From positions 20,088 to 84,087 of the IMG/VR virus record IMGVR_UViG_3300034101_004323: a stretch of 64,000 nucleotides of DNA. One strand, 5' to 3'. Each line of letters starts with the position of its first letter. Positions within the stretch are counted from its first letter, which is position 1. Positions 6,463-62,219 of this stretch are shown here, one piece after another. The notes below the pieces were generated by a model. The model saw only the letters and a list, made by a program, of their open reading frames with translations. It was not told where the DNA came from and did not search any database. The stretch comes from a virus. A program made the translations under genes and the position numbers.

Positions 6463-6642
6463 ATGAATAAAGTATTTTCTGAATTAGCAGTCGGTGAAAG
6501 ATTCAATTTAAATGGCGTCGATTATATAAAGATACAAGAAGTCAGAGTTAGTTGTTGCAGATCTATAAATGCTCAGGATGCAAATAATCCAGCAACCAAA
6601 ACATTTGTCCAAGCTTCAACAACGGTAACTATTAATGCCTAA
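6463..6642 (+). CDS. Small conserved-looking phage protein, 59 residues
   Basis: ATG 6463 follows AAGGAG at 6451-6456, a strong ribosome site, and starts one base after the dnaE N-half ends. The product has an opening like GERFNLNGVDYIKI and a central VRVSCCRSINAQ segment. Short proteins with this GxxFxxNGxxYxKI plus SCCRSINAQ pattern are familiar in many unrelated phages, but their function is unknown. It has no membrane segment. The stop overlaps the exonuclease start (ATG 6635) by 8 bases, so it belongs to the operon. Confidence 0.75.
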   Translation: MNKVFSELAVGERFNLNGVDYIKIQEVRVSCCRSINAQDANNPATKTFVQASTTVTINA

Positions 6643-7336
6643 TTTTCAAAAAATCTGTGTTTTCGACATGGAAACGGACGGGATTAACCCGGATGTTTGC
6701 AGTCCAGTACAAATCGCTGCTGTTGTTATTGATCCAATAAAATTAGAAATAGTCAAAGATTCAGAATTTAATATAAATCTCAAGCCAGAACTTTTAGAAA
6801 ATAATACAAGTTATGCCTATGAGGACAGTGATGTTTTGGATTTTCATTCCAAAGTTAGAGGATGTTCTAAAGCAGCAATCCTTGACTCATGGAAAAAATA
6901 CCAGTCACAAGAGGCTGGCTGGAAAATGTTTGTCTCTTATCTTGAAATGTATCACATTAAATCAAAGGGAAATAAAAAATCCTGCTTTTCTGCACCAATT
7001 GCTGCTGGATTTAATATTAATAGATTTGATTTGCGTATTATAGAAAGATTAAGTAAAAAACATAATAATCTTAATAAAGAAGGAAGATCTTCTTTATTCT
7101 ATCCAAGAGATGTTATTGATGTTATGAACTTATTATTTTATTGGTTCGAATACAATAATGAGTTAAAAAACTATACATTAGATAATCTAAGAGACTATCT
7201 TGGCATAAATAAAGACAATGCTCACGATGCACTAAAGGACGTAAAAGATACAGCAGACATTATGACTAGATTTTTAAAACTACATAGAAGCCTATCTAAT
7301 AAGGTTAAATTCAAAGGATCTTTTATAAATGCCTAA
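6635..7336 (+). CDS. dnaQ: DnaQ-like 3'-5' exonuclease (DEDDh)
   Basis: It probably proofreads for the phage DnaE, as the epsilon subunit does in bacteria. Exo I is VFDMETDG near residue 10 with the DxE pair. Exo II is AAGFNINRFD near 130. Exo III is AHDALKDVKDT near 196-205, giving the DEDDh histidine and aspartate. At 233 residues it fits a stand-alone epsilon. It sits between the two halves of dnaE and overlaps the second half by 8 bases, which supports a role with that polymerase. No clamp-binding motif or separate alpha-binding domain was recognised. Confidence 0.87.
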   Translation: MPNFQKICVFDMETDGINPDVCSPVQIAAVVIDPIKLEIVKDSEFNINLKPELLENNTSYAYEDSDVLDFHSKVRGCSKAAILDSWKKYQSQEAGWKMFVSYLEMYHIKSKGNKKSCFSAPIAAGFNINRFDLRIIERLSKKHNNLNKEGRSSLFYPRDVIDVMNLLFYWFEYNNELKNYTLDNLRDYLGINKDNAHDALKDVKDTADIMTRFLKLHRSLSNKVKFKGSFINA

Positions 7337-37900: not shown

Positions 37901-40833
37901 TCTCCTGTTGGAGCACCATTATTTAACCAATTGATAAATCTTAATGAGCTCAGATAATTAATATAAACTACTGGTAAATTCAACATACCATCTTTAGCAG
38001 AGTATGCGAATGGAGTTATAGAACCATCGCCAGTTCTTAGAATACCACCATAAATTGTACCAGACATTCTTGGGTCATATAAACCATTAGCCGATATTCC
38101 CGTTGCAACAGCATTTAGGAAAGAAATATATTGTTTATTTGTTATTTCTTTTTCAGAAATAGAGAATGGATATGGGACCGATCCTAAATTAGTTTTATTT
38201 ATTGGGTTTGGTTCTGCTTTTATAGTAAATCTATTAGTATAAGATTCTGTATATAAAGCAGATTCGTCAGATGGATTATATATATCCTCTACGCTAGTGA
38301 ATTTAAACTGCATACTATCATTAATAGAATTATTGCTAAATCCTGCTTTGGAACAAATTCTAAAACCAACATCATCAAAACCAGATAATCTTGGTGTTGG
38401 AACATAACTTCTTAATCCGTTGGGATCCAAAGTTCTCCATGAACCACCGCAAACATATTGCATTGAATTAGCAGAAGATATCTTTTGATCATCTTCAGTC
38501 CATTCATAAACATTACCGTTTTGATCATATGTTCCATAAAAGCTTTTTCTACCATTTGTACCAACAACACTCAACATTCCTGACCAATAAGAAGAACCCT
38601 GAGTATATGCTGCTTCTTGAAAATTTACAGTATTATTAGATCCTCCTGCTCCGTTACCATTAATAGAAATTTTAACTGGAATAGGATCAATAGCCAATCC
38701 ATCAGAATTTTCAAGTTGTGTTGCATACTGGAAATATTTACCTGATGGTTTGGTGTTAAGAGTAGCTTGGGCAAAAACATTAATAGCTGGAATATCGCCC
38801 ACACCATAAACTAAAAAGTCTATATTCTTTTTTGTTGTATTAAAAATTGTTGGAACATTGGGTCTGGTGCTTAATTGAATAGCTGTTGCATCAGAAGCAA
38901 CATTTGAAGTATATAATTCATTTCTTAATATTCCTCCTCTTGTAATAGAGAATATACTAAGATCACCAGACAAATTAACACTGTTTTCTACTACTAGGCC
39001 AGTAATTTCATCATTTGTAACAAATATATCTTCAATAATATTATAAGAGATAGTATTATCTACAATATTATTTATAGCGATTTGATCTCCAATAGCAAAT
39101 TCTTCTGTAGATGCTGGAGTGATTAAATCTATTTCTTTTGTTGTTTTACCAATACATACTTGTCCAGATCTACTAGGATATCTTGTCCAAGATAAATCTT
39201 TTCCTCCTAATCTCACAGTACCTGTTTCATATGGCCAAAAATCTGAAATATTAAATTGAGATACAACGGTTCCTCCGTCTGTTGTGGTCAAAACCTTTCC
39301 AGCGCTTTGATTTCCTAGTCCTGGAATTTTAAATCCAGTAGTTGCTACGACTCTTTGAGAAGCATCTAAACATAATAATTGATCTGTTTGAGTAATATAT
39401 GGCAATCTTAATGAGTTTAAAACAGATACTATTCCTGTGGTTGTTATATTTGAAGCTCTAATACCAACACTTCCGTCGTTTCCTGTTGTTGCTATAGAAA
39501 TATTAGATGATTTTAATTGTATACTACTATTATCAAAAACTATACTATCACCAGATGATGATACTTCTATTCTACCATTACCATTTGATATTATTGTAGA
39601 GTCAGGATGACTAGTTAATGTTGTTTTAGTAGAATTACCATCTGATACAATTAAACTAATTTGCCCATCATTATTTGCTAATGATTTAGTGTTTGCTTCA
39701 ATGGAAGCATAAGTAATTTTAGCCCCGGTACTATTTTTAGCAGAAAAAGAGACTTTGCCTATAACATTATTATCTGCATTGGTTAATGCGTATGGATTCT
39801 TATATAAAGCTATATGAGCTGGAAAATCACATGATGATTTATTTTCTAATCTTATATCTTCTTGGCATATATTATTAATAATATGAAAAACTGTTGCTGG
39901 TTTTATACCAGATGGCATATTTAAACCAAAACGACCATCATGTGTAAAAATTAAATTTCTAGATGGATAATTGGGTAAATTACCACTACCATATACTATA
40001 AAGTTTCCTGATTCTTTAGTTTGATTAAATATTGTATCAAATGTTCCTGATGATGGTAGTATAACTTTAGCAGAGCTCTCTGTTGCTGAACCTAATAAGA
40101 TTTTATTATTATTACCTATATAAGCGTTAGCTCCTGCAAAAGATCCACTATTATTATATTGTAATGATCTATCATCTCCATTAGGATTACTTTGTGCTGA
40201 AAAGATGTTCTCGTTATCATTAAACGATAAAGAGCCGACATTACTATTATTGGTATTTAGTACCACCCAATCCAGCCCTGTTGAAATTATAGAAGCATAA
40301 TCATCATTAGATAAAGATAGTAAGGTTTTATTATTATATTTTATTCCTAATGATCCTGATCCTACAATCTTAAAAAATACTTCTAATGCTTTATTTTTTG
40401 AAGCATCTATCAAGTCTGCTTCTATGTATCCTGTAGAGGTATCAACAATATATACCGTTTTAACATTATTAATAGTGAAACTATTATTTTGAAATGAAAT
40501 ATTATTAAAGCCAGTGTTAAAATTTAATGAATTAACAAATAAATAGAACTGTTTAGAGCCTTTAGAGGAAAAATTCACCATGCTATTCTGGTTCGATGAA
40601 GATACTACGCTTCTATCAGCAACAACAATGGCCGAATCATTTTTTTGTATAATTCCTACTCCAACTTCCCATTCTATGTTAGAATTATCTATTATATTTC
40701 GTGCTAAATATGGTATACTTGATCCAACATGAGTATCATTTAAATTATTATATCCTGGTAAATTATTTAAAATTACAAAATTATTGTTATTATTTATTGT
40801 AAAAACACATCCTATATTATCGAATATGTGCAT
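34930..40833 (-). CDS. Giant tail fibre with permuted FGE-like fold and two fibronectin III domains, 1967 residues
   Basis: Probably an adhesion fibre. Three diverged copies of an FN..xxIDFxVYG unit lie near residues 270-310, 655-700 and 1505-1550, and SWTRYP recurs near 550 and 1330. Near 700-830 there is the second half of a formylglycine-generating-enzyme/C-type-lectin-like domain (YATQ, then GNVYEWTEDD, then CGGSWR, then GFRIC). The first half follows at 890-1022 (ISEKEITNKQYISFLNAV, then WLPSLNEWHKAAYF), so the order is reversed. Two FN3 domains (starting GKPTDLIATP and SKPQTFSVTR) occupy about 1720-1925. The remainder is beta-rich and Gly/Ser/Asn-rich. It is transcribed directly after the tape measure gene. 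Confidence 0.75.
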   Translation of the reverse strand: MHIFDNIGCVFTINNNNNFVILNNLPGYNNLNDTHVGSSIPYLARNIIDNSNIEWEVGVGIIQKNDSAIVVADRSVVSSSNQNSMVNFSSKGSKQFYLFVNSLNFNTGFNNISFQNNSFTINNVKTVYIVDTSTGYIEADLIDASKNKALEVFFKIVGSGSLGIKYNNKTLLSLSNDDYASIISTGLDWVVLNTNNSNVGSLSFNDNENIFSAQSNPNGDDRSLQYNNSGSFAGANAYIGNNNKILLGSATESSAKVILPSSGTFDTIFNQTKESGNFIVYGSGNLPNYPSRNLIFTHDGRFGLNMPSGIKPATVFHIINNICQEDIRLENKSSCDFPAHIALYKNPYALTNADNNVIGKVSFSAKNSTGAKITYASIEANTKSLANNDGQISLIVSDGNSTKTTLTSHPDSTIISNGNGRIEVSSSGDSIVFDNSSIQLKSSNISIATTGNDGSVGIRASNITTTGIVSVLNSLRLPYITQTDQLLCLDASQRVVATTGFKIPGLGNQSAGKVLTTTDGGTVVSQFNISDFWPYETGTVRLGGKDLSWTRYPSRSGQVCIGKTTKEIDLITPASTEEFAIGDQIAINNIVDNTISYNIIEDIFVTNDEITGLVVENSVNLSGDLSIFSITRGGILRNELYTSNVASDATAIQLSTRPNVPTIFNTTKKNIDFLVYGVGDIPAINVFAQATLNTKPSGKYFQYATQLENSDGLAIDPIPVKISINGNGAGGSNNTVNFQEAAYTQGSSYWSGMLSVVGTNGRKSFYGTYDQNGNVYEWTEDDQKISSANSMQYVCGGSWRTLDPNGLRSYVPTPRLSGFDDVGFRICSKAGFSNNSINDSMQFKFTSVEDIYNPSDESALYTESYTNRFTIKAEPNPINKTNLGSVPYPFSISEKEITNKQYISFLNAVATGISANGLYDPRMSGTIYGGILRTGDGSITPFAYSAKDGMLNLPVVYINYLSSLRFINWLNNGAPTGDMVSSSTTEDGSYNISESAGVISVTRKKDAGYWLPSLNEWHKAAYFMPLPNESISTSGSAVTISRVEPFEYASGLVSTLSVGGNIYADSLSLGSSGNKLLSANISNSNYNIKFGGDDTVVEVDPLSSITGAFGTFISNTGIVFATTGNTVFINKINPLSLVRFTPNRTEFYQDLFIGSGLNGGGIKISSSGGLEYVGADGNVIPGGMFPGPSGGFLFKVDDTNVVSSEHFKSEYMVVSSTDGDGNITSSTGLYPVLNGTPEGSIIHNSDQGYLTASNWFGVGLAPSQASSLGNYVVGIYKPSGETADGQNELPPALYTDRIFVGPLVPGFSGSILTHNGTGPALWQQPDYLSAPGVSWTRYPRRAIEFIGAGVGGTIDRFKFISLDESKGGTGGINLSDIQKEFAYNETIAIYNQNRDVFYVKVANISLVDARDADGAKDFFTNEIDLVVTVCPPIPEDFYGTSQLVLGQGDEDNGRYVGYAFSVQKGGYLEMKIEPDAIEGFTCDGLSANSEYRFKPSTINTISIRPNIYTTFNKIAEDIDFIVYGHRKTLFTRYEPEWFAINENGVPSGLTPAFRVHASIPNSVLGSLESGIFRKTTIIENQIAVRATGIYLDVKPKITINTNTPYAITTLNGVYEGIISYGANAEENLALEKAYGMEISSTGVAISGSLPLSTYADLSVDGYTYSSGLITKELVLNPVWTGSVPVPYEESLNKKLYVPNYPLTINTFGQIVSLIPPPNPQLPGKPTDLIATPKYNAVVLEWQAPEDNGGRDIYAYLVEYYSDIAEDWLPLESEQITTDGLPLVSNPATYRYVSNLFSTTSYRFRVIAINTVGKSEPSDPTPNVTPSSDFPSKPQTFSVTRNQYDALLSWTAPANDGLSARNGYIVYYWLDDGVTPIGQFSWITYNGSVSASATSLVVDNIPENNTYFFKIVATNSYGDSEPSEIRSIGTDGDPRSTVTEDTSTFGTDSFDFSGGPSGLGMMFTGVCY

Positions 40834-40856: not shown

Positions 40857-43800
40857 TTATACTTGAAAAGGATTAATTAGTGGAGATCCTGCTATTTGAT
40901 TTGCTGCTGCTAGTTCAGCAAACTTTTCTTGTATCACTGACATAGCAATATCTTGTAAATCCGGGGACAGCTTATTCAATGCGGCATCTCCATTAATTAT
41001 CACATTATGAGTATGTGTTACTGTTATAGTTATTTCCTGTGGTATTGCACTTAATCCGGCCAAAGTATCAGCTACGCTCTTAAGTCTGTTGGTAAATTCA
41101 CCAATCTTATTAAGAGTATCCGAGTCAATAGAAGATACACCATTTGATGGCGCTGCTGCCGTTTGACCGCTCATTGCTTGGACGGCATTCTGAAAAGCTA
41201 ATGTAATAGAACTACTAATTTGGCCAACTATATTACCCATATAGGAGGACAAATCAAACATTTTATTTCCACCAGTTACACCTCCTGCTGTTTCATAATA
41301 ATTTGGAGTTATTATTCCACCATTAGATAAATAATTAACAATGCCACCTCTTGTATAATATCCGTCATTAATAGCTTTTAGTACTGGTAGATGTTTTTGT
41401 GTTGCTTTACGATTAATAACAAATTCGCCAGGAGTTAACATGGCAGGAACAGTATCAGTTCCACGAGGTTGATAATTTACAAGAGTTCCATTCTTGGCAT
41501 ATACTGGCACTCGTCCCCCTGTTGCAAAGTTTTTAACACCAGAAAATACATTTCCAGCCCCTTCTTGATTTTGATCATTCTTTTTTTGTTGTTCTTCTTT
41601 TAGATTAGCTGATGCTCTTATTAGAGCTTCTACTTGATCAGCATGAAGAGTATCTCGTCCATTTTCTAAGTTTAAGTCTCTTTTATAAGCATGCGCAAAA
41701 CTATTCCAGTGAATTTTTCCATTATCGCTTGATATTGCTTTTAAAGAATCTACAAAATATTTATAACCATAACCCACATTATTCTCATTCCATGGAATGA
41801 CAGCATTCTTATCATCAGACTCTCCGGTTTTTAGTCCTGTATTAAGTAGTGTATCAAAAGCTCTAAAATAAAGCCAAATATCTTTTAATCTAGTTTCTTT
41901 TTCTTTTTTGAGATCGTCTGGTAAAAGATCCTCTCCGTATTCATTTTTTCCTCTAAAATAAAATTTTCGTAATTTATCAATAAGCTCACTTCTATCTTCA
42001 GAATTTGGAAAAATTCTTTGAGGATCTAAAGCAACTTCCATTAATCTATTCCAACTATCAGGAAGTGCTTGTTCTGCACTTTCTACTTTACCAGCTCCTT
42101 TGGTTCCAAAAGTATAAGAATCGCCCTTTAACTTATCGTCTTTGGTTTGTATGAATTTAGTACTAGTTCGTTTTGTCATATTTGACATTATTTGTCTATT
42201 TATTATTTTTTGTAATAAATCTTGACTAACATTCATTCTGTTCCAATATTTAATATAATCTTCACCCAAATCAGTTTTTCCCATTACAGCATTACTTATA
42301 ATCTTTGTTTTGTTTCGATCATCTGGATCAGCAACTACCCTTGTTTCAGGGAAGCTCTCATCAGACAAATTTACTCCAAGATCTTGTAAAGTTTGTGTGC
42401 TATTTGTATCTTTCAGATTATATATTTCAGCAAAAACTGCTCTCCAAGCATCTATCCTTTCTCTTTCATAATTTCCAGGAAGTAAAGATGTTGGTATTTT
42501 TGATCCTATATTAGCAGCAGCATTTCCAATATCAGCAACACTTGTCATTTCTTTACCTATTGAGGAACTCACTAGGGGTGGTACATCATCACCAAGTCTT
42601 GCTAACCTATAGAACTCTCTTGCTAAAGTTACTTTTTTAGCATCATCAATCTTGGCATATTCTCCTATACTAAAATCAGTTTTAGCATATGATAATGCTG
42701 TTTCATTCTTGATTTTTTCCATATTAGCTTCACGAGCTTTGAAAAATTCATCTAGATTCAAGTCTAATGTTTCGTTAGATATAAAAGATTCACTACCAAA
42801 TTTTGAATCATAAATAGGACTATATGGAATTCCATTACTAGCTGATAGATTCGGAATTTCGCGGTAGTCTGTGCCTCCTCCCAGTATGTAGTGGTCTACA
42901 TAGTCATCTAAACGAGATTCTGGCAAGCCTAATGTATTATCACTTATTCCAAGAAACGGATTAAAAGGTCTCATCTTCTCATCATTTCCTTGCGGTGGAA
43001 TTATTACATGCGGTTCCTTTACTCCTAATTCTTCAAAAGATTTTCCAAATCTTTTTTCATTTTCCAAATATAATCTACTCTTAGGATCATATTTGATATA
43101 ACTAAATTTGACACCATTCTTGTCATAGTTTCCTGGTGATCTTATTACTGGTTGTTGCACCATATCTGGTGATGTTACAGCTTCTCTGAAAATCTCATCA
43201 TAGTCATCCAAACTTAAATTAGCATCAGTCCATCTAAAATATTTAACAGTTCCATCTTTATTAATTCCAAGCATATCGGTTTTTTCTTCATCGCTGTACT
43301 GAAATTTTTGTTCTCCATCTTCTGCCTTCTTTGTGTTTAATGCTGCTAATTTAGCTTGATATTCTGTCCATCTGCCACTAATAGCTTCATTATAAGCTGT
43401 AATAGGGGCTAAAGGAGATCCAGCCATTGCTGAAGGTTCTATAACGGGCTTATCTAATTTTATAGATGCTACTGTTCCATTATATAAATTAACTAAATCG
43501 CTAACATTCTGTTTATTTCCTAAAGATTCTTTTGTTTCGCTCTCAAATTTCTCTGAAAGTAAAGCATCTTGATATCGTAATGCTGTCAATCTGATATTTT
43601 GGGCTAATTGTAGCGTTGCTATACTTTCCGTCTGATAATCTTGTATAACATTAGAAAAATTTGCCATTCCGTTTGGTGGCTCATGTTTAATCGTTTGTCC
43701 CTCGAAGTCGAACCTGCCACCTTCCATACCCTCTTTTCTTATAAAATTTTCTTTACCAGATACAATAGGAAAGTTCTTTTCTCTTCCAAAACCATCAGCT

Positions 43801-46800
43801 CTAAAACCAATAATATTACCAACAGGACTATTCTTTGCTTTTGCATAAAGATCGTCTCGTTGTTCCTTTCGGATAAAATAATAATAACTATTATCTTTTG
43901 AGGCTAATCCTTTAATTTCTGCTGATCCATCAGCATAAGAAGTAAAAGAAGGATTTAATGATGGTACCTTACTTGGTGTGTCTAATTTTACTTTAACTCC
44001 GTCAATAGTCGCTTCTCGACCACTTACTTCGCTCACTTCGGTTAAAGACTTAACAATCATATCCAAATTAGCTAAGACATCAGGTTTTTCTGTTTTTTTA
44101 ATTTTTCTGGTCTTTGGATCAACAGGATTAAAAATATGCTGATCAAATGTATTTTTTATTGGAATACCACCCCATCCCCAATTCCCAGAACTGTTATTAA
44201 CAGCTCCAAAAGCCACATTATCTTTTGTGTTTTGACCTAATTTTGCCTGTTGCTTTATACTATCATAACCCCATCCAAATACTGGCATAGTATTAAAAGT
44301 TGGAGAACCAGAATACATAAATTTGCCATCGGTTCCTTTTTTAGGAACCAAAATATCATTTCTAGGTACTGGTTCTGTAGCATAAAACGAACCTTGAAAG
44401 GTAGACCAATTTTCAGTTTTACTTTTTACAGTATCTTCTGATAATGGTTTGTCATCATTAATAATAGGATATTCTTTATTTGATTCTTTTTCAACAATTG
44501 ATGTTCTAGCAAATGATTGTCTAGCAGACTCTGCTGCATCTTTCGGAGCAAAACCTCCAGTAACAACATAACCTCCATCAGCATAATATTTAACTTTACC
44601 ACCATTACTATAATTTCCACTATTAATATTCTTTAATAATGGAAGATGTTTTTGCGTAGCACTTCTATTAACAACAAATTCTCCCGGTGTTAACATAGCA
44701 GGAACAGTATCTGTTCCTTTGGGCTGAAAATTTACCATTTGTCCAGCAGAAGCATAGATGATACCACCATTTGCTTTTCCTGGAGCCATAGCTGCCGGGT
44801 TCTTTTCAACAATAATTCTTAATTGTTTTATTTCGTTTGCGATATCTTTAAGTTGAGCATTTTCAAAAGTGAATGGAACGCTTCTCATTGCTGATACTAA
44901 TTTTGCTGCTGCTATTTCTGCTGTATTTTGGTTCATTAATCTAACAATATTACCTAATTCAGTATTGGCTAATGATTGTGCATCAACAGCTTTTTTGTAT
45001 GCAGTAATAGCTTCTTGCATCTCTGGATCACCTTCTGGATTTCTTAGAGATTGCAAAACATCAGCCATCATAGGATTAATTCCAACTCCGCTCTCTATTA
45101 ACATGCTCTCAAGAACATTGGCTTTCATACCATTCTGTTTTTCGCCTAAAAATGGTGCTATCATATTAAATGCATCTAAACTTTCTTTTCTTTGATCAGC
45201 ACTACTGCCAAAATTAATACCACCTTGCATATTATTATTTAATCTATCCATAGCTCTATTTAATTGACTAAGTTCTTGAGGACTACTGGTTACCAACCTC
45301 TCAGCCATATTTACGCCAGCTTGACGTTTTTGCTGTATCTCATTAATCTTGGACATAGCAATACTGGCCATCTCCGTATTATCAGCCATACTCTTTAACG
45401 CATCATAATTTTCTCTTAATGCAATATTCGTATTTCTTAAACGATCTTGCATCATCATGAATTCGTCTGTTCCAGCATATCCTCTTTGTCCAGCAGTATT
45501 ACTCATGCTTTGTTGAGTTGCTCTTTGAGTTTCTAATGTTCTAACATTCTGAGCAATGAGAGCAGGATTTGTTTGTCCTCCTGTTTGAGCTTTAACTCCG
45601 GCCAAAGAAGCATCAAGTTGTTGCCTTAATGAAATTTCTTTACCAAGAGCTTTGTCTAGCTCCATCTGTCCTCTTACTTGTATATCCGAAGCTCGTCTGA
45701 ATCGTGAATTAGCTTCAATTGAAGACTCTACCATTTGATTCATAGCATTTGAATAATCATTCAAATTATTTTGCCAATGTTCTAATGCTTTTATAGCAGC
45801 TTCTTGTGCTTTCCTTGTAGAATCCATAATATTTCCAAGTTGTGGAATTTTTTCCATTAAATCTCCAAAATCAATTTTTTCATCACGCTTTTGGCGAATT
45901 TGTCCTATGGCAGCATTGACTTCTTGACTTAATTTATTATTAATATCTTTTGGTAATTTAAGTTTAGTTAAAGCTTCTTCTATATTATTTTGAATTTTTA
46001 TACCAATTTTTTCATTACCAGCATTTGGATCTTCTTTAATTGTTTTATTAATAGTAGACATTATGGTATCTTGTAATGTGCCACCAGCTTGTAATAATCC
46101 TTTCATATCACCAGATTCTGATCCAAACATATTTGCTGCGTTTTGTGATGCTTCTGCTCTTTGTGTTTTATTATATGCATTTGGATTTTGTAACACATTA
46201 ATACTTTTGAGTGATACTTGACCAGCTTTAGCATTACCAGATAAAGCACTTGCTGATAATTCTGCTTGTTGACTTAAATTATTTAATTCAAAAACATTTC
46301 GACCAATAGCTTGTTCCATATTCTGGAACATTCTTGTTAAACTATTTTGCAAATGATTAGCAGATTTTGACAATTCCTCTAACTTCATTTGTTTTAGTGT
46401 TGTTGCTTGTATTTCTCGTGCTTTTCTTTCTCCCTGTATGGAAATAATAGATTCTTTTTTAGCATTTTTCTCTTCTTGTGTAAGACCTATAGAATTTTGT
46501 ATATTCAGTATTTGTTCTTGGACAGCAGCATCTGCCAAGGCTAAACTTCTTGTTAACTTGGTAAAATCTGGTGTTCCGGCCACATCTTTGATCTGAGTGC
46601 CTGATCTTATTTTTTCTTCAATAAGTTGAGAAGAAATCTGCGCTGTACCAGCATAGTCTTTTGCTGCTTCTACTGATTTTTTAGGAATCATTGTTGCAAA
46701 TAGTTTTTGCTGTTTCTCAGCAGCACCACCACCAAAAGTAGCAGAAAAATAATCACTCATCCCTTTTTCAAATAGTATATCTGATCTTTCTGATGATCCT

Positions 46801-49800
46801 TCTCCAGTATCGAACAAATTGGCAAAACCTCGACGAGCTCTGGATTTTTCTTTTTGTACCTGATCTGCCATTCCTGTAGACTTACCAATTTGTTGTTCTA
46901 CTACTCTTTGTTTAACTTCATTTTTCATGTCTTTCTTGAATTCTTCAAAAGCTTTTCCTGTTGTTTCTAAAGATGCTTCTAGATTTTTGGAAGCTAATGA
47001 AATTGCCATTTCTCTAGCAGCATTCTCAGCATCTATAAAAGCTTTTGTCATTCCAATAACTGCTGTTACAGCTGCGGCTGCTGGACCAGCAAAAGCGGCT
47101 ATGCCTCCCATTCCTTGTGTCATCTCACCAACCATTGATCCCATCATCAAACTGCTTCCAACTGTTGTTGCGGCTCCCTGAGTCAGGGTTTGATTATATG
47201 CTCCTGATGTTGTGGTTGGAGCTCCTCCGCTAAACATATCAGTTAGCATGGGAATCAGAAAACTTGCTGTCATTGCTCTGCCCATCATATTTCCACCACC
47301 TCCACCAGAGCCACCACCTCCACCGACTCCTCCAGAGCCACTACCATTTTTGCCGCCTCTAGCTGCTGCTAATATTTGATTAGTGCTCATACCAGCAGCA
47401 GCACCCAAGCCTACTCCTGCTGTTCTATTTGCTGCTTGTATTGCAGTTGCTTGTGCTCCTCCTTTTCCGTATCCTGCTGCTTGTAAAGTAGCTTTTTTAG
47501 CTGCTGCAACATCAGCTTTGGATTGACCGCTCATCGCTGCTGTATCAGCAGAACTAGTACCAAAAACCGAAACTCGACGAGTTGCTCTGCCAAATGCTCC
47601 TGTTCCTGTAGGTATATCTGATGTCATTCCTCTTATATCATCCATTGCTTGTCTAGCTTGAGTACCCTGTCTTCTTACTCCTAATAAAGTTTCAGCACCA
47701 CCTGTTCTATTTTTTCTATATGCTGTTGCTGAATCATCTAAGCTTTTTGCTGTTTTACGTGCCGCATCTCTTAGTGCTCCTAGTGGATCAGCTAATAAAT
47801 TTTGTCTAAAAGATCCTAAAGCTGTTGCAGCATCTCCTAATGTTTTTCCAAATCTTGCTTGATTTTGCTGTTTTCTTTCTGTATCAGCAACAGCCATTTG
47901 TGTTAATGTATTTCTTTTTAATCTGCTTCGTTCTCTTTCTCTCCTAGGATCAGAAGCTGAAAAACGACTATCAACATCTGCATCTATTTGACGCATTCTA
48001 GCTTGTCCTCTAACTGTTGATCTTTTTTCTCTCAATATTTGATATCCTTCTGGATTCCTAGCTAAATTTCTTCCTAATGTATTTACATTATAAAATCCTG
48101 TGCTTGATGCTGCATTATCAATCATACTTTGTGCATTTGCTCTTCTTGCTTCTTGTCTTCTTTTTTTTGCTTCTGATGATAATCTTCTTCTCTCAGCTTC
48201 TTCTCGTCTTCTTTGAGCTTCAGGGTCAATCTCGGCAGTAGCTAAAGGTTCCCATGAACCTCTTGCAAACTTCTGAACAACTCCGCCACTATGATACTTA
48301 GGCAACTTGTTTAATGCTGTAAACCCACCCTTATTAAGTTTGTCAAGATTATTATAACCTAGATCTTGGGCAGAATTTTTATTAATAACATATTCACCCT
48401 CTTTAGCCATAATGGGTATTTCGCCACCAGATGCTTTTTTAACTACCGAGCTTTTTTGTTTTATTTTATCCGGAGCTTTAAAATATGAACTTTGTAATGC
48501 CCAAGCATCAGCTCTTAAAGAAGCTTCTTCAGCAGATTCACCTGGACCACCGTGATATGGTGGCCATTCTGATTTTGGTCCCTTTAATCTAGGATCAAGT
48601 AAATTACTTGCTGTCCAATATTGTTTTGGTAGTGGAGTTTTAAATACGTCTTTACGAGTTAGAAAATAACGTTTCCATACCCCTTTAGCAGCAGGAGTAA
48701 CACTACCTCTATCTGATGTTAATCTTCCACCAGATTCTGCTACTGATTCCATAAGAGTATCATATAATCCACGAGGCGCAAATCCTTTGGTAGCATTAGC
48801 AAAACTAACAGCAAATAATTTTGGCCCTATCTTATTAGCTTTAACGGTCCCAAATCTTTCTTTCTCATATAATTTACCAGTAAATGCTGCTGTAACTTCT
48901 CCTTCTTCTGGTTTTCCATATAAACCAATTTTACCATATGCTCTTCCACCACCTCTTATTTTTCCTTTTTCTATAGCGTCTCGTCTTTTTTGTAGAAGAT
49001 CTAATTCCTCCATTTCTTGTTGTGTTTTATCTTTCTTATACATCAGAGAGACTAATCTTCCACTATCTGGTGCAGCATTTGCTAAACCTGTGTATCCGCC
49101 TTTTGCATGTTTTTTTAGTCTAGGTCTATATCCTTCTGCTCTTAAAGCTTTCTGTTCTGATGTTAAGCCTTCGTATTCTCCCATGCTTCCGCCACGACGT
49201 TCTACTGCGCTTTGTATTCTTTGTCTTTTTTCTTCTACTGCTTTATCTCTTCTTTCTTGTTCTGCATAGATCTTTTTTGATGGTAGTAATCCCAATTTCT
49301 TGCTTATGTCCCAATCTGGAAGAGCATAGTCTTTCCATCTATTGTCTAGTCTTTCCTCTAATTTAGCTGTTAATTGTTCTGGTGTCATACCTAGAATATT
49401 AGCTCGTGCAGCAATATCAGCCGGAGAGTATTTTCCTCTTACCCAATCACCCTCAGAATATCCGGACCTAGATTTTATAAAGTTTTTTATATTACTAACT
49501 ATTTTGCCTTTTGGTCCTGTTAATGTTCGTTTAGCGTCAACAGGTGTTCTGGCCAATAATGGATTATTAAACCAGTTTGTTGCTATTTTACTTCCTATAC
49601 CATAAGGAAAGTCTATACTACTATGCTTTTCGCTATCTTTACTCATTGCTGTCCAAATATTAGCAGCGGCCGGATCTTTCGATATGATTTGCCTTATTTC
49701 TTCTTCAAAAGCATTTCCTTGAGTATCTGCTATGCCTTTTCTGGTTGCTCTACCCATAGACGATTTAGTTTTTTTGTATAAAAATGATTTTATGCCAGAT

Positions 49801-52800
49801 AATTTAGAAGCAGCAGCAATATTATCTGGATCATCATCAACAAATACTCCTTTATCCTGTCCCAAAGCTTGGGCCATAACATTTGCTTTAGCTAGTCCTA
49901 TATCTGCTGCGGAAGTTCCTTTTGCCCCAACTCCGGTAAAATTACTTAATGGTATATTTAATCCTCTGCTATTAACCCAACTAGCAATAGATCCTACAGT
50001 GCTTTGAGGTCTTGCTGTTACAATATGTAATCTGGACAAAAATTTATTATAATCAGCAGGAGAAAATTTCTTTTTAAGTTGACTAGATAAACGCACAAGC
50101 CCTCTAAATAGAGCAGATGGTTTGGTTTTAGCCAATTCCATTTTCGCTCTAACTTTATCACTCAATCCTCTTGCAACAGATGCTTTTTCATAAAATTGAC
50201 TATACATACCAGCTTTGGATGTTTTATCATCCATTGTCGGGGTTTTACCTGTTTTTTTAAATATTTCTTTTTGTTTTTCTGTTATAGGATCAGTGTTAAA
50301 TGCTAGTGTTTTATCAAAATCAAAAAATGCTTTAAGACCAGATCCTCGTGGATCTAATAGCTTAATAATCTCATCAACATATGATTTTTGAACACCTTGC
50401 CCGACCATTTTTAGATATCCCTTAGTATATTTCTTAGCTCTTTGATCAGCAGTTGGTGCTGCCTCTACAGATGCTCTATTAGGATCCTTCTTATCCATCT
50501 GTGCTAAACGAGCTTCTCTTTCAATGTTGTTTTTATCTAATACTTGACCAAACACTCTAACCTTTTTAGATCCATCTAGTCCAGGAATGTCTATGTCTGT
50601 TGGCGGAAAACTAGATCCAAACATTCCTATAGCACCAAATAATGAGTCTGAAGAAATTGCATTATTTGTATCTTCATTATCTTTATTTCTTCTATCTTCT
50701 ACTATTTTATTCGCTTTAACTACTAGTGAACTTAATATTTTAGATTTTAATGTTGGATTTTTGCTATATGGTCCTAATAAGGTTCTTATATCATTAGCTG
50801 ACATACCAGTATTACCACTAATACTACCAGCAGATTTTAGTATCTCGGTAATATCAATTCCTAGCTGGTTAGGTAGTTGAGCAGATGGTATTTTTGATAC
50901 TTCGTCAAGAGTCCAATCATTCATTCTCACATTTGCTCTTCTTCCTCCTCTACCTTTTTTAACAAAAGATCCGGCCATTAATTTTTGAACATCTTCTGGC
51001 TTGGTTTTTTTCTTTGATCTTCTATAAAATAATGATCGTTGAGTTTTTTCTATATCTCTCTGTGATCTATAATCTTTATTTTTTAATAGTCCTGGAGTAT
51101 TATCTTCAAAAATAAGAAATCTTCCAATATTAATATTATTAGGATCTTTATTTAAAGTTATTGATCTTGTTTTATCTGCTACTACTTTTTCACTGGCAGA
51201 TCTTTCTGAAATAATAGATCCTGCTACTTTATCCAGCAAATCACGAGTTGATACCTGAGCATCTTTACTTTTTACCTCAACGGGTGTGTTTCCTCGTAAT
51301 CCATCGATTCTAGAAAATCTATTCCCTTTCTCTTGTTTATATTTTCCAAGTGTATCTAAAATTCTTTCAAAGGCTGTACCTCTAGCAGAACTACCTTTTG
51401 ATCCTGTTGCTCCTCTACTATTGATATAGTTTTCTGTCTCTACTGGATTCTTTTCTCTAGCTTTCTTAATATCCTGTTCAGTCAAATTTATGGGTACTCT
51501 GCGAATATTAGCTTCTATAGTATCTCTAGTATTAAACCTTAAAGGAGGACTTGCTCTTCTTTTAAGTGCCTTTTCGATACTTTCTCCCTCTTTCTTATCG
51601 TAAGTTGTTTCTACATTAGGAACATATGGTCTACTAGACTTAAGTACGGCTAATCCTCCTTTAGCAAACTTTTGTGTGCCCTTTCCACCCAAACCCAATG
51701 CTTCAGTTGCTTTTTTTCTAATAACAAAACTTCCTACTGGTAGTGTTGTATAAAAACTATCAGTATTACCTCTTCCAGGAACTATTCCAATCCCACCTCC
51801 GCGTGCTCTTTTTTGTCTATATCCATTTTTATCAGCATGATTCATTTTTCGTAATGTTGATGTTCCTATTCTAGCAGCATGTTCTGGATAAAAAACAGCT
51901 TCTCCTGGTGTTAGAGCAACAGGAACATTAGAAACGTCTCCTCCTCCTGCATACTTATTGATGAATCCTCCCTTTTTAGCTCCTTGAGCTCCATTAGTCC
52001 TGAATCCTCTTAAAAATCCAGAACCAAACTGCCTTACTCCACTAGCTCCTCTAAAAGCCATCATAATAGCAAGAACAGGAAGAACACCCTTAACACTATC
52101 AGCAACACTAATAAGAGCGCTAGCTAATCCTAATGCTCCTTTAGCTAATGCTTGAAAAGTATCGCTACCGCCAATCTCTCTGAATAAGGCTAAAAATTCT
52201 TCTCGTACTTTTGCTGCTTGATTTGCTAAAGAAGCTTGTGCTTTAGCAGCATCCATAGTTAAAGATCCTTGACCTTGTTGAGCAACTCTTAGTGCGTCTT
52301 GAGCAGTTGCGAACTGCTGAATAAGAGGAATAACCTTACCAATTTGTCGGAATCCGCCCAGTTCTTCTACTATCTCACTAAATTTTAAATCTCGCGGATC
52401 AATTTGATTTAATCCTTCGCTTAGTAACTGAACTGCTTTATATGCTCCGACGAATTTTCCTTCTGCATCTGTAAGATTTACGCCGAATTCTTTCAAGGCT
52501 TCAATAGTTCCGCCTCTTTGAATTCTGGTAAAAATAGTCCTTAAACCAGTAGCAATAGTTTCTGCACTTTCACGAGTTGTTGCTCTAACGCTAGTAAATA
52601 CTGCTATAAATTCATTCAAAGCATCCGTGCCTTCACTAACTCCTTTACTAGCAGAAGCAAACACACCACCGGTTCGTTGAATAGCAGCAATAATATCACT
52701 TGCTTCAACAGCAAATTTAGCAGATACTGCGTTAACAGCACCAAGAGATTTCTCTAAATCAATTGCACTAATACCAAACTGTCTCATTAATGCAATACTA

Positions 52801-53543
52801 CCTTCTACCGTTTGATTCATATTATCAAAAGATGGAGCAAGACTGCTTAATGCTAATGCTTTTAATGCTCTTTCAGTATCTCTTGCTGTTAAACCAGCTT
52901 GAGCTAATGTTAACGATACTTCAGTTAAATCTTTAGAACTAACACCCAATGATGTGGATAACTGAGTTATTGTATTAGATAATTGAGATAATCCTGATGC
53001 AGATTCTCCCGTAACCTGTTGTAATTTAACAAATTGTTTATCATAGTCTATAAATGCATCAATACCTTGTCTCATTGCATTAGTCAAGCCCATTATAGCT
53101 CCAGCAGACATACTAAAGGCAGCGAATCTTCTAACTGCTAATCCTGCTGTTCTACCAAACTCTACCATTTGGCCAGATGCTTCTCTTGTTTGTCTTCCTG
53201 CATTACCAATATTATCCGCAGCATTATTTGCTGCTGCTGCTGCATTGTTTAAGTTTCTATTTAGTCCAGCTGTGTTATTATTAATTGCTGCTATTGATGC
53301 TCCAAATTGTCTTATAGCATTTGCTGCATTAGTAGCATTATTAGTTGTTGTTGTTAAATTATTATTTAATGTTGTTAATGCAGTATTTAATACTGTAACA
53401 TTACGAGTGGTTGCAGGATTAATTCTTAGATTAACATCTCCAGTTATTGTTCCTAATTGTCTTCTAATATCAGAAACTATATTTCTAACATTAGATGGTC
53501 CTCTAAGATTAATCTGTGCAGTTAAATTAAATGCTGATGCCAT
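40857..53543 (-). CDS. Giant tape measure protein with embedded enzyme-like domains, 4228 residues
   Basis: It sets tail length and is expected to be expelled during infection. The N-terminal 500 residues carry the phage tail-tape-measure core (AMRQGIDAFIDYDKQFVKL near 150, then LSTSLGVSSKDLTEV and FTSVRATTRESAETIATGL). A hydrophobic stretch lies near 480-510. Then come a PD-(D/E)XK-like domain (about 720-780; RIDG, then PVEVKSKD), a HAD-like domain (about 1070-1260; DFDKT, VTARP, FVDDDPDN), a second PD-(D/E)XK-like domain (about 1275-1345; NAFEEE, then TPVDAK) and an acetyltransferase-like patch near 1590-1625. A Gly-rich linker and membrane-like segment lie near 2070-2190, and coiled coil runs from about 2190 to 2930. 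Two similar TPGEF modules flank a 1050-residue block of unknown type. Linkers of the form KxFAxGG recur between parts. Confidence 0.9.
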   Translation of the reverse strand: MASAFNLTAQINLRGPSNVRNIVSDIRRQLGTITGDVNLRINPATTRNVTVLNTALTTLNNNLTTTTNNATNAANAIRQFGASIAAINNNTAGLNRNLNNAAAAANNAADNIGNAGRQTREASGQMVEFGRTAGLAVRRFAAFSMSAGAIMGLTNAMRQGIDAFIDYDKQFVKLQQVTGESASGLSQLSNTITQLSTSLGVSSKDLTEVSLTLAQAGLTARDTERALKALALSSLAPSFDNMNQTVEGSIALMRQFGISAIDLEKSLGAVNAVSAKFAVEASDIIAAIQRTGGVFASASKGVSEGTDALNEFIAVFTSVRATTRESAETIATGLRTIFTRIQRGGTIEALKEFGVNLTDAEGKFVGAYKAVQLLSEGLNQIDPRDLKFSEIVEELGGFRQIGKVIPLIQQFATAQDALRVAQQGQGSLTMDAAKAQASLANQAAKVREEFLALFREIGGSDTFQALAKGALGLASALISVADSVKGVLPVLAIMMAFRGASGVRQFGSGFLRGFRTNGAQGAKKGGFINKYAGGGDVSNVPVALTPGEAVFYPEHAARIGTSTLRKMNHADKNGYRQKRARGGGIGIVPGRGNTDSFYTTLPVGSFVIRKKATEALGLGGKGTQKFAKGGLAVLKSSRPYVPNVETTYDKKEGESIEKALKRRASPPLRFNTRDTIEANIRRVPINLTEQDIKKAREKNPVETENYINSRGATGSKGSSARGTAFERILDTLGKYKQEKGNRFSRIDGLRGNTPVEVKSKDAQVSTRDLLDKVAGSIISERSASEKVVADKTRSITLNKDPNNINIGRFLIFEDNTPGLLKNKDYRSQRDIEKTQRSLFYRRSKKKTKPEDVQKLMAGSFVKKGRGGRRANVRMNDWTLDEVSKIPSAQLPNQLGIDITEILKSAGSISGNTGMSANDIRTLLGPYSKNPTLKSKILSSLVVKANKIVEDRRNKDNEDTNNAISSDSLFGAIGMFGSSFPPTDIDIPGLDGSKKVRVFGQVLDKNNIEREARLAQMDKKDPNRASVEAAPTADQRAKKYTKGYLKMVGQGVQKSYVDEIIKLLDPRGSGLKAFFDFDKTLAFNTDPITEKQKEIFKKTGKTPTMDDKTSKAGMYSQFYEKASVARGLSDKVRAKMELAKTKPSALFRGLVRLSSQLKKKFSPADYNKFLSRLHIVTARPQSTVGSIASWVNSRGLNIPLSNFTGVGAKGTSAADIGLAKANVMAQALGQDKGVFVDDDPDNIAAASKLSGIKSFLYKKTKSSMGRATRKGIADTQGNAFEEEIRQIISKDPAAANIWTAMSKDSEKHSSIDFPYGIGSKIATNWFNNPLLARTPVDAKRTLTGPKGKIVSNIKNFIKSRSGYSEGDWVRGKYSPADIAARANILGMTPEQLTAKLEERLDNRWKDYALPDWDISKKLGLLPSKKIYAEQERRDKAVEEKRQRIQSAVERRGGSMGEYEGLTSEQKALRAEGYRPRLKKHAKGGYTGLANAAPDSGRLVSLMYKKDKTQQEMEELDLLQKRRDAIEKGKIRGGGRAYGKIGLYGKPEEGEVTAAFTGKLYEKERFGTVKANKIGPKLFAVSFANATKGFAPRGLYDTLMESVAESGGRLTSDRGSVTPAAKGVWKRYFLTRKDVFKTPLPKQYWTASNLLDPRLKGPKSEWPPYHGGPGESAEEASLRADAWALQSSYFKAPDKIKQKSSVVKKASGGEIPIMAKEGEYVINKNSAQDLGYNNLDKLNKGGFTALNKLPKYHSGGVVQKFARGSWEPLATAEIDPEAQRRREEAERRRLSSEAKKRRQEARRANAQSMIDNAASSTGFYNVNTLGRNLARNPEGYQILREKRSTVRGQARMRQIDADVDSRFSASDPRRERERSRLKRNTLTQMAVADTERKQQNQARFGKTLGDAATALGSFRQNLLADPLGALRDAARKTAKSLDDSATAYRKNRTGGAETLLGVRRQGTQARQAMDDIRGMTSDIPTGTGAFGRATRRVSVFGTSSADTAAMSGQSKADVAAAKKATLQAAGYGKGGAQATAIQAANRTAGVGLGAAAGMSTNQILAAARGGKNGSGSGGVGGGGGSGGGGGNMMGRAMTASFLIPMLTDMFSGGAPTTTSGAYNQTLTQGAATTVGSSLMMGSMVGEMTQGMGGIAAFAGPAAAAVTAVIGMTKAFIDAENAAREMAISLASKNLEASLETTGKAFEEFKKDMKNEVKQRVVEQQIGKSTGMADQVQKEKSRARRGFANLFDTGEGSSERSDILFEKGMSDYFSATFGGGAAEKQQKLFATMIPKKSVEAAKDYAGTAQISSQLIEEKIRSGTQIKDVAGTPDFTKLTRSLALADAAVQEQILNIQNSIGLTQEEKNAKKESIISIQGERKAREIQATTLKQMKLEELSKSANHLQNSLTRMFQNMEQAIGRNVFELNNLSQQAELSASALSGNAKAGQVSLKSINVLQNPNAYNKTQRAEASQNAANMFGSESGDMKGLLQAGGTLQDTIMSTINKTIKEDPNAGNEKIGIKIQNNIEEALTKLKLPKDINNKLSQEVNAAIGQIRQKRDEKIDFGDLMEKIPQLGNIMDSTRKAQEAAIKALEHWQNNLNDYSNAMNQMVESSIEANSRFRRASDIQVRGQMELDKALGKEISLRQQLDASLAGVKAQTGGQTNPALIAQNVRTLETQRATQQSMSNTAGQRGYAGTDEFMMMQDRLRNTNIALRENYDALKSMADNTEMASIAMSKINEIQQKRQAGVNMAERLVTSSPQELSQLNRAMDRLNNNMQGGINFGSSADQRKESLDAFNMIAPFLGEKQNGMKANVLESMLIESGVGINPMMADVLQSLRNPEGDPEMQEAITAYKKAVDAQSLANTELGNIVRLMNQNTAEIAAAKLVSAMRSVPFTFENAQLKDIANEIKQLRIIVEKNPAAMAPGKANGGIIYASAGQMVNFQPKGTDTVPAMLTPGEFVVNRSATQKHLPLLKNINSGNYSNGGKVKYYADGGYVVTGGFAPKDAAESARQSFARTSIVEKESNKEYPIINDDKPLSEDTVKSKTENWSTFQGSFYATEPVPRNDILVPKKGTDGKFMYSGSPTFNTMPVFGWGYDSIKQQAKLGQNTKDNVAFGAVNNSSGNWGWGGIPIKNTFDQHIFNPVDPKTRKIKKTEKPDVLANLDMIVKSLTEVSEVSGREATIDGVKVKLDTPSKVPSLNPSFTSYADGSAEIKGLASKDNSYYYFIRKEQRDDLYAKAKNSPVGNIIGFRADGFGREKNFPIVSGKENFIRKEGMEGGRFDFEGQTIKHEPPNGMANFSNVIQDYQTESIATLQLAQNIRLTALRYQDALLSEKFESETKESLGNKQNVSDLVNLYNGTVASIKLDKPVIEPSAMAGSPLAPITAYNEAISGRWTEYQAKLAALNTKKAEDGEQKFQYSDEEKTDMLGINKDGTVKYFRWTDANLSLDDYDEIFREAVTSPDMVQQPVIRSPGNYDKNGVKFSYIKYDPKSRLYLENEKRFGKSFEELGVKEPHVIIPPQGNDEKMRPFNPFLGISDNTLGLPESRLDDYVDHYILGGGTDYREIPNLSASNGIPYSPIYDSKFGSESFISNETLDLNLDEFFKAREANMEKIKNETALSYAKTDFSIGEYAKIDDAKKVTLAREFYRLARLGDDVPPLVSSSIGKEMTSVADIGNAAANIGSKIPTSLLPGNYERERIDAWRAVFAEIYNLKDTNSTQTLQDLGVNLSDESFPETRVVADPDDRNKTKIISNAVMGKTDLGEDYIKYWNRMNVSQDLLQKIINRQIMSNMTKRTSTKFIQTKDDKLKGDSYTFGTKGAGKVESAEQALPDSWNRLMEVALDPQRIFPNSEDRSELIDKLRKFYFRGKNEYGEDLLPDDLKKEKETRLKDIWLYFRAFDTLLNTGLKTGESDDKNAVIPWNENNVGYGYKYFVDSLKAISSDNGKIHWNSFAHAYKRDLNLENGRDTLHADQVEALIRASANLKEEQQKKNDQNQEGAGNVFSGVKNFATGGRVPVYAKNGTLVNYQPRGTDTVPAMLTPGEFVINRKATQKHLPVLKAINDGYYTRGGIVNYLSNGGIITPNYYETAGGVTGGNKMFDLSSYMGNIVGQISSSITLAFQNAVQAMSGQTAAAPSNGVSSIDSDTLNKIGEFTNRLKSVADTLAGLSAIPQEITITVTHTHNVIINGDAALNKLSPDLQDIAMSVIQEKFAELAAANQIAGSPLINPFQV
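41361..41471 (-). repeat. Tape measure TPGEF module, C-terminal copy
   Basis: Residues 4025-4061 read QPRGTDTVPAMLTPGEFVIN followed by RKATQKHLPVLKAIN. It matches the copy near residue 2940 at about 30 of 37 positions. Shorter, more diverged relatives occur near residues 550 (ALTPGEAVFYPEHAARIG), 605 (LPVGSFVIRKKATEALG) and 1718 (AKEGEYVINKNSAQDLG). Confidence 0.8.
44616..44726 (-). repeat. Tape measure TPGEF module, internal copy
   Basis: Residues 2940-2976 read QPKGTDTVPAMLTPGEFVVN followed by RSATQKHLPLLKNIN, then a GG-rich linker. Together with the C-terminal copy it brackets about 1050 residues of unrecognised sequence. Confidence 0.8.
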
Positions 53544-59500: not shown

Positions 59501-60583
59501 TTAAGCCTCATATGGTGGCGGCTCATATGTTACGACCATATGCCATCCAGATATGCTACCAGATGACCCCAGATCTTCATCTTTAATTATTAAGGACCAG
59601 TCGCCAGGATAACTATAACCAACGAGTCCTGTGATAGATATTGTAAGATCTTCGTAATTAATATTATCTAAACTAAATCTATATGATGGTCTTTTGTCTA
59701 AAATATTTAAATAATAATCGTCGTTATTTCTATTATTTAGATATATTCCGGATATTGCTTTATTAGAAAATGCAAAACTTAGCCCATTTAAAGTATTATA
59801 ATTATTAATTTTATTATGGCTAGATAATAGTATTTTTTGCCCAGATGGAGGAACAAGGACCATTGAAAGATCCTGAGGATTATTATGAGTTAATTTGTCT
59901 ATAGAAATTTCTATATTAGTTATTATGCCAGTATCTAGAACAGAAATAGTTCCGCTACTAACTCCCATATCTGGTATGCTAAAACCTGATCCAGAATAAA
60001 GTTTCGCAAACATGTCCATTCCTTGACATAAATATCCACAAAAATCCTCTTGTATAATATTACATGGTGAACTGATCGTTGGGGTTGGAGTTGGAGTTGG
60101 ATTATCTCCTGTTGGAGCAATGCCACCACCACCTGTTCCTGTTGATGCTATAGAAAATCCATTACTATCTTCACATAAAATATCACCACAACTTGCACAA
60201 CTTCTACTGGTACTTCCAGAAATACAATCAGAAAAATTATTTTTTATAATCTCAATACGACCTGTGGATATCCTAATATTTTGTGAGTTCTGTCCTGCTA
60301 AACCAATATCAAGATCATAAATAGCAGAATCAAACGTAAAATCTTTAGTGCTTGATGCTGGTAAATTCCATATAATGTATCCTGATGTATTAGATGTTAA
60401 ACTATAATTACCGCATCCGGCTGAACTACTATATAACCTTACTGTATTATTATTATCTTTTAGCCTTAATCTAATACAATAATTACTTACATCTATAGGA
60501 TTGCTGTTGTTGTCCAGATATTGAAATGTTATCTGGAAATCTGATCCTTGTTCTATATAAAAATTGTATGTTGCTGCTGCCAT
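59501..60583 (-). CDS. Virion protein with an N-terminal Ig-like fold and a C-terminal P-domain, 360 residues
   Basis: The N-terminus NFYIEQGSDFQITFQYLDNN, then VSNYCIRLRLKD, matches the IEQGxxFxxxxxYxD opening of Ig-like virion proteins in many phages. A Gly/Pro/Thr linker (about 148-172) follows. The C-terminal 150 residues have the proprotein-convertase P-domain plan: ITNIEISIDKLTHNNPQDL, then MVLVPPSGQKILLSS, then GDWSLIIKDEDLGSSGSISG followed by W. There is no protease domain, so it is probably a beta-sandwich decoration or binding module. It sits among the neck genes and precedes the 67-residue gene by 5 bases. Confidence 0.7.
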   Translation of the reverse strand: MAAATYNFYIEQGSDFQITFQYLDNNSNPIDVSNYCIRLRLKDNNNTVRLYSSSAGCGNYSLTSNTSGYIIWNLPASSTKDFTFDSAIYDLDIGLAGQNSQNIRISTGRIEIIKNNFSDCISGSTSRSCASCGDILCEDSNGFSIASTGTGGGGIAPTGDNPTPTPTPTISSPCNIIQEDFCGYLCQGMDMFAKLYSGSGFSIPDMGVSSGTISVLDTGIITNIEISIDKLTHNNPQDLSMVLVPPSGQKILLSSHNKINNYNTLNGLSFAFSNKAISGIYLNNRNNDDYYLNILDKRPSYRFSLDNINYEDLTISITGLVGYSYPGDWSLIIKDEDLGSSGSISGWHMVVTYEPPPYEA

Positions 60584-61497: not shown

Positions 61498-62219
61498 AAT
61501 AGTTCTCCTTGTTGAATAGTTAATTGACCATGTTCTTTTACGCTATTAAAGAGTATGATATCTTTTTCATAGTATTTTTCTATTTGTGACTTTTGTTCTT
61601 CTGATAGTATTGGTTTGGTTCTTTTTGCCTTGTTAGCTACTAAGGATTTATTCTCATTTATTCCTATAAACTTCAAACAGTCTCTTAAATTATCAGGAAA
61701 GTTAAAGACATAAGTTTCTCTTTGAATATATTTATGCTGATGAAAGAAATGCACATCGTCTCTTAAGTATCCAAATCGTTTAAAATCTCTTACTGGTAAT
61801 CCTTGATCTATTCTATTTTGTCTAGTTTCTAGCTTTTTAGCATTTATTTTTTCTAAATTAGCTAGTTGGTTCGATACTTCAATATCTTCTCTTGTTCGGA
61901 GAAAAGCGCTATCATTTACTAAAGAATCTATTGCTTTATCTATATCTTCAAATTTAATTGCTATTTGCTGACAAGCAGTAATAAATCGATCAACTGGATT
62001 TCGTACCATTAATATTATAGGTTTATCTGGAGTTGTTGATCCGGGACACATCCAGTGCCATTGTTTTTGGCTTTCATCAATACCATTAGGAAATCTTGCA
62101 TAAACTATTTTTTGATGTTCTTTTGGATAAAACTCTTTAATGATCAATCGAGCCATAGTTGATGAGCCAACTTTAGCATTAAGAGCAACGCTATAATTAG
62201 GAGTAGTATAATAATACAT
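61488..62219 (-). CDS. Sulfotransferase-like protein, 243 residues
   Basis: The N-terminal VALNAKVGSSTMARLIIKEF near residues 11-30 fits the 5'-phosphosulfate loop of the PAPS-dependent sulfotransferase superfamily. ILMVRNPVDRFITACQ near 69-84 fits the 3'-phosphate site (RNPxxRF). The rest is helical and charged. It would transfer sulfate to a sugar or protein acceptor; a target on the virion or on the host surface is a guess. It lies between a LamG fibre gene and neck genes, an odd place for an enzyme. The stop codon of the LamG gene overlaps its ATG (TAATG). Confidence 0.65.
   Translation of the reverse strand: MYYYTTPNYSVALNAKVGSSTMARLIIKEFYPKEHQKIVYARFPNGIDESQKQWHWMCPGSTTPDKPIILMVRNPVDRFITACQQIAIKFEDIDKAIDSLVNDSAFLRTREDIEVSNQLANLEKINAKKLETRQNRIDQGLPVRDFKRFGYLRDDVHFFHQHKYIQRETYVFNFPDNLRDCLKFIGINENKSLVANKAKRTKPILSEEQKSQIEKYYEKDIILFNSVKEHGQLTIQQGELLCH

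Follow-up and report, generated by a model that had tools for sequence, protein, structure and literature searches.

Enzyme domains inside a phage tape measure protein (TMP) are known from mycobacteriophage TM4, from YomI of SPbeta and from the enterococcal TMP-GH23, all of which are peptidoglycan hydrolases that cut the cell wall at entry. Polyvalent proteins of phages and conjugative elements are long, multidomain proteins with ADP-ribosyltransferase (ART), GNAT or nuclease domains and are thought to enter together with the DNA (PMC5512222); a search of the polyvalent protein paper of Iyer et al. 2017 found no mention of TMPs (PMC5512222). In the contractile injection effectors Tme and Sle1, a carrier resembling a TMP is joined to an enzymatic or effector domain that varies (PMC11126660, PMC13277306). 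Here we describe a putative HAD phosphatase domain in the TMP encoded by a stretch of 64,000 nucleotides (the window), which forms part of an 84-kb IMG/VR virus record (IMGVR_UViG_3300034101_004323).

As in TM4, YomI and TMP-GH23 the enzyme domain lies inside the TMP, but its chemistry would be directed at phosphate, probably in the cytoplasm, and it is one of several exchangeable modules. In contrast to the polyvalent proteins the carrier is the TMP itself, and whereas Tme and Sle1 belong to bacterial injection systems and have a single C-terminal effector domain, the phage TMPs studied here have internal arrays of putative enzymes. The domain can further be compared with the HAD phosphatases that have a small helical C1 cap (PSPH, AphA, NT5C3). 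It has the same DxDxT, T/S, K and DD set and the same Rossmannoid strand order, but is only 12-16% identical to them and sits within a tail protein of 4228 residues. Enzyme-bearing TMPs and injected multidomain proteins are already known; no report of a TMP phosphatase or of a swappable multi-enzyme TMP cargo was found in the open-licence papers searched.

A HAD-type domain in the tape measure protein

By its matches to curated profiles, the long open reading frame (ORF) at 40857-53543 encodes a TMP: it scores far above the cut-offs of TIGR01760 (E=6e-26; 91.3 bits versus 28.8) and PF10145 (E=7e-22; 78.7 bits versus 33.2), and PHROG TMP families match it as well. Its segments are bounded by four related Gly-rich linker repeats, with cores of the (T)VPAMLTPGEFV(I/V)N type. 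The layout is as follows.

40857..53543, minus strand: tape measure protein, 4228 residues (TIGR01760, PF10145, PHROG TMP families)
51999..53543, minus strand: N-terminal domain of the TMP, residues 1-515, a conserved backbone (50-90% identity among related TMPs)
51648..51974, minus strand: Gly-rich linker repeat 1 (VPVALTPGEAV..., ...VPGRGNTDSFYTTLPVGSFVI), residues 524-632, left edge of the cargo region (repeat alignment)
49764..50372, minus strand: putative HAD phosphatase domain, residues about 1058-1260 (conservation in homologues, predicted fold, dN/dS)
50307..50321, minus strand: HAD motif I, DFDKT, residues 1075-1079 (nucleophile D1075, acid/base D1077); D, F, D and T invariant in 33 sequences, 22 TMPs
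50007..50021, minus strand: HAD motif II, VTARP, residues 1175-1179 (T/S1176); A and R invariant, T/S throughout
49884..49892, minus strand: HAD motif III, AKA, residues 1218-1220, with the invariant Lys K1219
49821..49844, minus strand: HAD motif IV, FVDDDPDN, residues 1234-1241 (D1236, D1237, N1241); D, D and N invariant
48219..48443, minus strand: Gly-rich linker repeat 2, residues 1701-1775, right edge of the cargo region (repeat alignment)
44574..47072, minus strand: central TMP core, residues 2158-2990, common to most related TMPs
44565..44777, minus strand: linker repeat 3 (GTDTVPAMLTPGEFVVN), residues 2923-2993 (repeat alignment)
41307..41546, minus strand: linker repeat 4 (GTDTVPAMLTPGEFVIN), residues 4000-4079 (repeat alignment)

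The four HAD motifs, noticed in the original prediction, all lie in this single uninterrupted ORF on the minus strand, in the order I to IV. They are suggestive only, because one of 2000 shuffled versions of the TMP also shows four ordered motifs at loose spacing. Given this match and the E-value of 0.038 for the Pfam HAD model, the case for the domain rests on its homologues and on structure.

Homologues and conservation

Successive profile scans of IMG/VR yielded 65 loci (designated here by L numbers), which fall into two groups. In group 1 (26 loci) the HAD domain is inside a TMP, of which the N-terminal 515 residues are 55-89% identical to those of the window. The first relative, L002, has the same TMP architecture and has kept the motifs, with 90% identity in the N-terminus and about 50% in the HAD domain. 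In group 2, with about 38 loci whose contigs measure 20-70 kb, the domain is found in ORFs of mostly 2000-4250 residues, several of them cut off by contig ends, without similarity to the TMP N-terminus. Neither the group 2 proteins nor their neighbours could be usefully identified with PHROGs or Pfam. Judged by their size, multidomain appearance and an HExxH motif, they look like multidomain virion or polyvalent proteins (PMC5512222).

An alignment of 33 sequences from both groups has D, F, D and T of motif I, A and R of motif II, the Lys of motif III and D, D and N of motif IV invariant, and the T/S position of motif II is T or S in 33/33. Among 22 non-redundant TMPs the invariant set includes D1075, D1077, T1079, A1177, R1178, P1179, K1219, D1236, D1237 and N1241; the Asp residues, whose non-conservation in close relatives would have spoken against the original prediction, are conserved in motifs I and IV alike. 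The dN/dS values between close pairs (0.08-0.17) indicate that the domain is under strong purifying selection. That the fold is a non-catalytic structural filler is hardly credible. TMPs tolerate variation in length and domains, and related TMPs do differ in length, but every catalytic position is invariant at 26-50% identity. The conserved catalytic set and the selection together suggest that the domain is probably an active phosphatase. An intein or an inserted gene was ruled out as its origin by the continuous frame and by the same arrangement across independent assemblies.

The window HAD, the L018 HAD and a kinase-nucleotidyltransferase module gave no match in INPHARED, and a group 2 HAD query retrieved only LR756500, a stand-alone HAD ORF of 187 residues with 23% identity. 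In this huge phage (L090, 8218-9525) the ORF directly follows a PD-(D/E)XK-like ORF. A scan of GTDB genomes gave three weak matches, which were not taken as homologous TMPs. The sequence ALDYDRTL in L004 and L006 was considered as a decayed HAD, but the profile gives no support and it was not counted.

Predicted fold

An AlphaFold2 model built on the 33-sequence alignment (mean pLDDT 85.4, pTM 0.82, core above 95) has the HAD strand order, and its motifs I and II are separated by a small helical cap; strand 115-119 ends at the T/S of motif II and strand 175-179 precedes the acidic pair of motif IV. The domain is predicted to adopt the Rossmannoid HAD fold. A first model, from three sequences, was weak (pLDDT 62) yet already pointed to HADs. 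All 11 Foldseek matches in the PDB at E<=1e-3 are HAD-fold proteins, led by PSPH (phosphoserine phosphatase) and AphA and further including L-2-haloacid dehalogenase, PtkA and NT5C3. Among the matches in BFVD are phosphatases of phages, PNKP phosphatase domains and large proteins from uncultured viruses. Since the TM-scores are moderate (0.35-0.49), the fold class is clear but the subfamily is not.

Sequence searches were less telling. No curated family model calls the domain, NCBIfam matches of the single window sequence are weak, and neither the window HAD nor a profile (A7) found a match among PDB sequences. Of the checks proposed for the domain, the Pfam profile search falls below its cut-off while the structure comparison returns HADs; together with the conservation and the purifying selection, the predicted fold agrees with a HAD-phosphatase-like domain in the TMP. 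It looks like a real and selected enzyme. On the narrower suggestion of a 5'-nucleotidase type the fold matches are divided: they include NT5C3, yet PSPH and AphA stand above it in the ranking, and phosphatase domains of phage PNKPs were matched too.

A mosaic cargo region

All-against-all comparison and local profiles of the related TMPs were used to map the region around the domain. The N-terminal domain is common to these proteins and the central core is found in most of them; the stretch in between is a mosaic. The domain noticed on its own in the original prediction is part of this larger exchangeable multi-enzyme cargo region, to which the following window segments also belong.

50961..51629, minus strand: nuclease-like module 1, residues 639-861 (RGTAFE ... 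RIDG ... PVEVKSKD), tentatively PD-(D/E)XK-like by motif, 68% identical in L002; no match in a Pfam search
49494..49742, minus strand: post-HAD motif, residues 1268-1350 (SSIDFPYGIG ... PVDAKRT), by motif possibly a second PD-(D/E)XK-like nuclease
48462..48956, minus strand: tentative GNAT-like module, residues 1530-1694, 41-44% identical in L014 and L017; no match in a Pfam search

The segment after the HAD has a predicted-model pLDDT of about 30-65. Related TMPs contain further modules. An ADP-ribosyltransferase domain inside the TMP of L005 (13250-14176) is above the cut-off of PF03496 (E=8e-6), and the domain is also present in L004 (residues about 1274-1427), L080, L082 and L021. A P-loop module followed by a HIGH-type nucleotidyltransferase, called by motif with a sub-threshold Pfam match, is found in L007 (776-1258), L016, L017, L018, L019, L025, L080-L082 and L085; the pair is reminiscent of NadR-type pairs. 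PD-(D/E)XK-like and GNAT-like segments in the related TMPs were called by motif only. Several effector-type enzyme domains per polypeptide, a trait of polyvalent proteins, thus occur across the related TMPs, and in the window TMP only the HAD is firm.

The cargo appears to have been exchanged recently. Identities of the N-terminal and HAD domains are loosely linked (r=0.36; 231 pairs). L040 and L041 have N-termini that are 57% and HADs that are 97% identical, and share a block of about 1000 residues that is mostly 90-100% identical between flanks of about 20%. At the DNA level this block extends over 2950 bp at 95.2%, versus 66-72% in the other aligned parts, and L025 and L029 share a block of 3458 bp at 92.9%, versus 74-76%. 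The window and L013 form the converse case (N-termini 89%, HADs 49% identical). The joints lie at Gly-rich linkers (FAGGG, RQKFAIGG/RQKLSVGG). The independent assemblies L039 and L054 have the same arrangements, and a chimeric assembly behind the L040/L041 swap was ruled out by L039 (99.8% over 11.3 kb, left joint included) and L054 (identical, 20.6 kb). A HExxH metallopeptidase-like motif (YHELTHQLF) is found in the exchanged block of L040, within residues 900-1900.

In a 2023 survey of mosaicism among phage proteins, TMPs were named as one class for which recent mosaicism could not be confirmed (PMC10684548). The swaps described here escape the two confounders named in that survey, because they involve non-repetitive globular sequence inside single long ORFs (PMC10684548).

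Such mobility would also be expected if the HAD and its nuclease-like segment were a selfish in-frame cassette that spreads among TMP genes without benefit to the phage. Indeed, blocks do move among TMPs, and a D..P.G.G plus (D/E)xK-type motif follows the HAD in 22/22 HAD-bearing TMPs (21 by pattern matching and L085 on visual inspection). We regard this explanation as very improbable, however, since the exchanged blocks measure about 1000-1180 residues and end at linkers that flank other modules too, the purifying selection on the HAD is strong, and the group 2 proteins have the HAD without the D..P.G.G...(D/E)xK segment downstream.

Proposed function

We favour, with a probability of about 0.58, a TMP that is both ruler and carrier, its HAD domain being delivered to the infected cell and acting there, at an early stage, on a nucleotide or nucleic acid. 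Besides measuring the tail, the TMP would hold, between N-terminal domain and core, independently folding enzyme modules on Gly-rich linkers, which in the window would include a HAD phosphatase of the small-cap kind, joined to a nuclease-like segment. As a portion of the TMP, the cargo would travel with the virion and, upon ejection of the TMP before or together with the DNA, pass into the bacterium. The HAD, by an Asp-phosphoryl mechanism with Mg2+, would then dephosphorylate a nucleotide or a nucleic-acid end, the likeliest purpose being to weaken host defence signalling or to mend damaged ends ahead of phage gene expression.

From the TMP context we infer delivery to the tail lumen or to the host; ejection of the TMP at infection is established for other phages. 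Likewise, that the domain is active, is packaged intact and delivered, and has this kind of substrate and biological role is what we infer. That the HAD recurs in very large phage proteins of another kind, and that ART, kinase-nucleotidyltransferase and GNAT-like modules accompany it in TMPs, would fit host-delivered enzymes. Precedents are a TMP-related contractile injection system effector with an active nuclease (PMC11126660), TMP-related effectors of such systems with variable effector domains (PMC13277306) and lytic domains in TMPs (PMC10194240).

Several points weigh against the proposal. The domain does not reach the gathering score of PF12710 (14.9 bits versus 27, E=0.038) and is therefore placed, by motifs and fold, as a divergent member of the superfamily outside that family. 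A folded HAD may be wider than the tail lumen, so that it would have to sit at the TMP end or unfold. The structure points to no single substrate class: 5'-nucleotidase and PNKP phosphatase subfamilies are both among the fold matches and neither leads. A scan seeded on the N-terminal domain found the HAD in 4/17 TMPs (about 13 distinct), about a third, so it is accessory and dispensable. Finally, the phage is known here from sequence and predicted structure alone.

The principal alternative is that the delivered HAD is, more narrowly, a polynucleotide end phosphatase of the PNKP type, which with co-carried kinases and nucleases would repair DNA or RNA ends that host nucleases have cut during entry. 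The BFVD matches to phage PNKP phosphatase domains, a weak Pnkp1 match of the first AlphaFold2 model and the P-loop module in the same TMP of L005, L016, L017, L019, L025 and L085 speak for it. We consider it unlikely, since PSPH, AphA and NT5C3 rather than PNKP lead the PDB matches, the partner of the P-loop is a HIGH nucleotidyltransferase, as suggestive of NAD or cofactor chemistry as of end repair, and a kinase module was not detected in the window TMP. Still less probable is that the HAD works in the producing cell or in assembly and is clipped off the TMP no later than tail assembly, so that delivery never takes place. Some phage TMPs do undergo proteolytic processing, and the linkers would be natural cut sites, but the domain is repeatedly found inside a virion protein, and inside other very large phage proteins, and not as a free gene.

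Other genes of the window

The DNA polymerase III alpha subunit is split over two ORFs (PHP plus NTPase domain; finger, HHH and OB) with an exonuclease-like ORF in between (4629-6461, 6635-7336, 7329-8945). A tail-module protein of 1967 residues (34930-40833) has FGE-sulfatase-type and fibronectin III domains; FGE-type folds are frequent targets of diversity-generating retroelements. Proteins of the structural region at 59501-60583 and 62219-63949 have Proprotein-convertase P-domain and Laminin_G_3 domains.

Implications

In the cases described here, a recent exchange of modules within TMPs, unconfirmed in the earlier survey (PMC10684548), is clearly visible at the DNA level, and the joints mark natural positions for cargo removal. 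It is possible, though we would not call it probable, that in a widespread group of uncultivated phages the TMP forms a modular delivery platform, in which HAD, ART, kinase plus nucleotidyltransferase, nuclease and GNAT cassettes are recombined at Gly-rich linkers and would be active in the host cytoplasm from the start of infection; the HAD would there take away a defence signal or an end that depends on phosphate. The TMP-borne enzymes known so far mostly cut the cell wall. A conserved phosphatase that moves as a cassette with ART, kinase-nucleotidyltransferase and GNAT-like modules suggests that the TMP, much like polyvalent proteins and the TMP-derived effectors of contractile injection systems, may be a general carrier of take-over or anti-defence enzymes.

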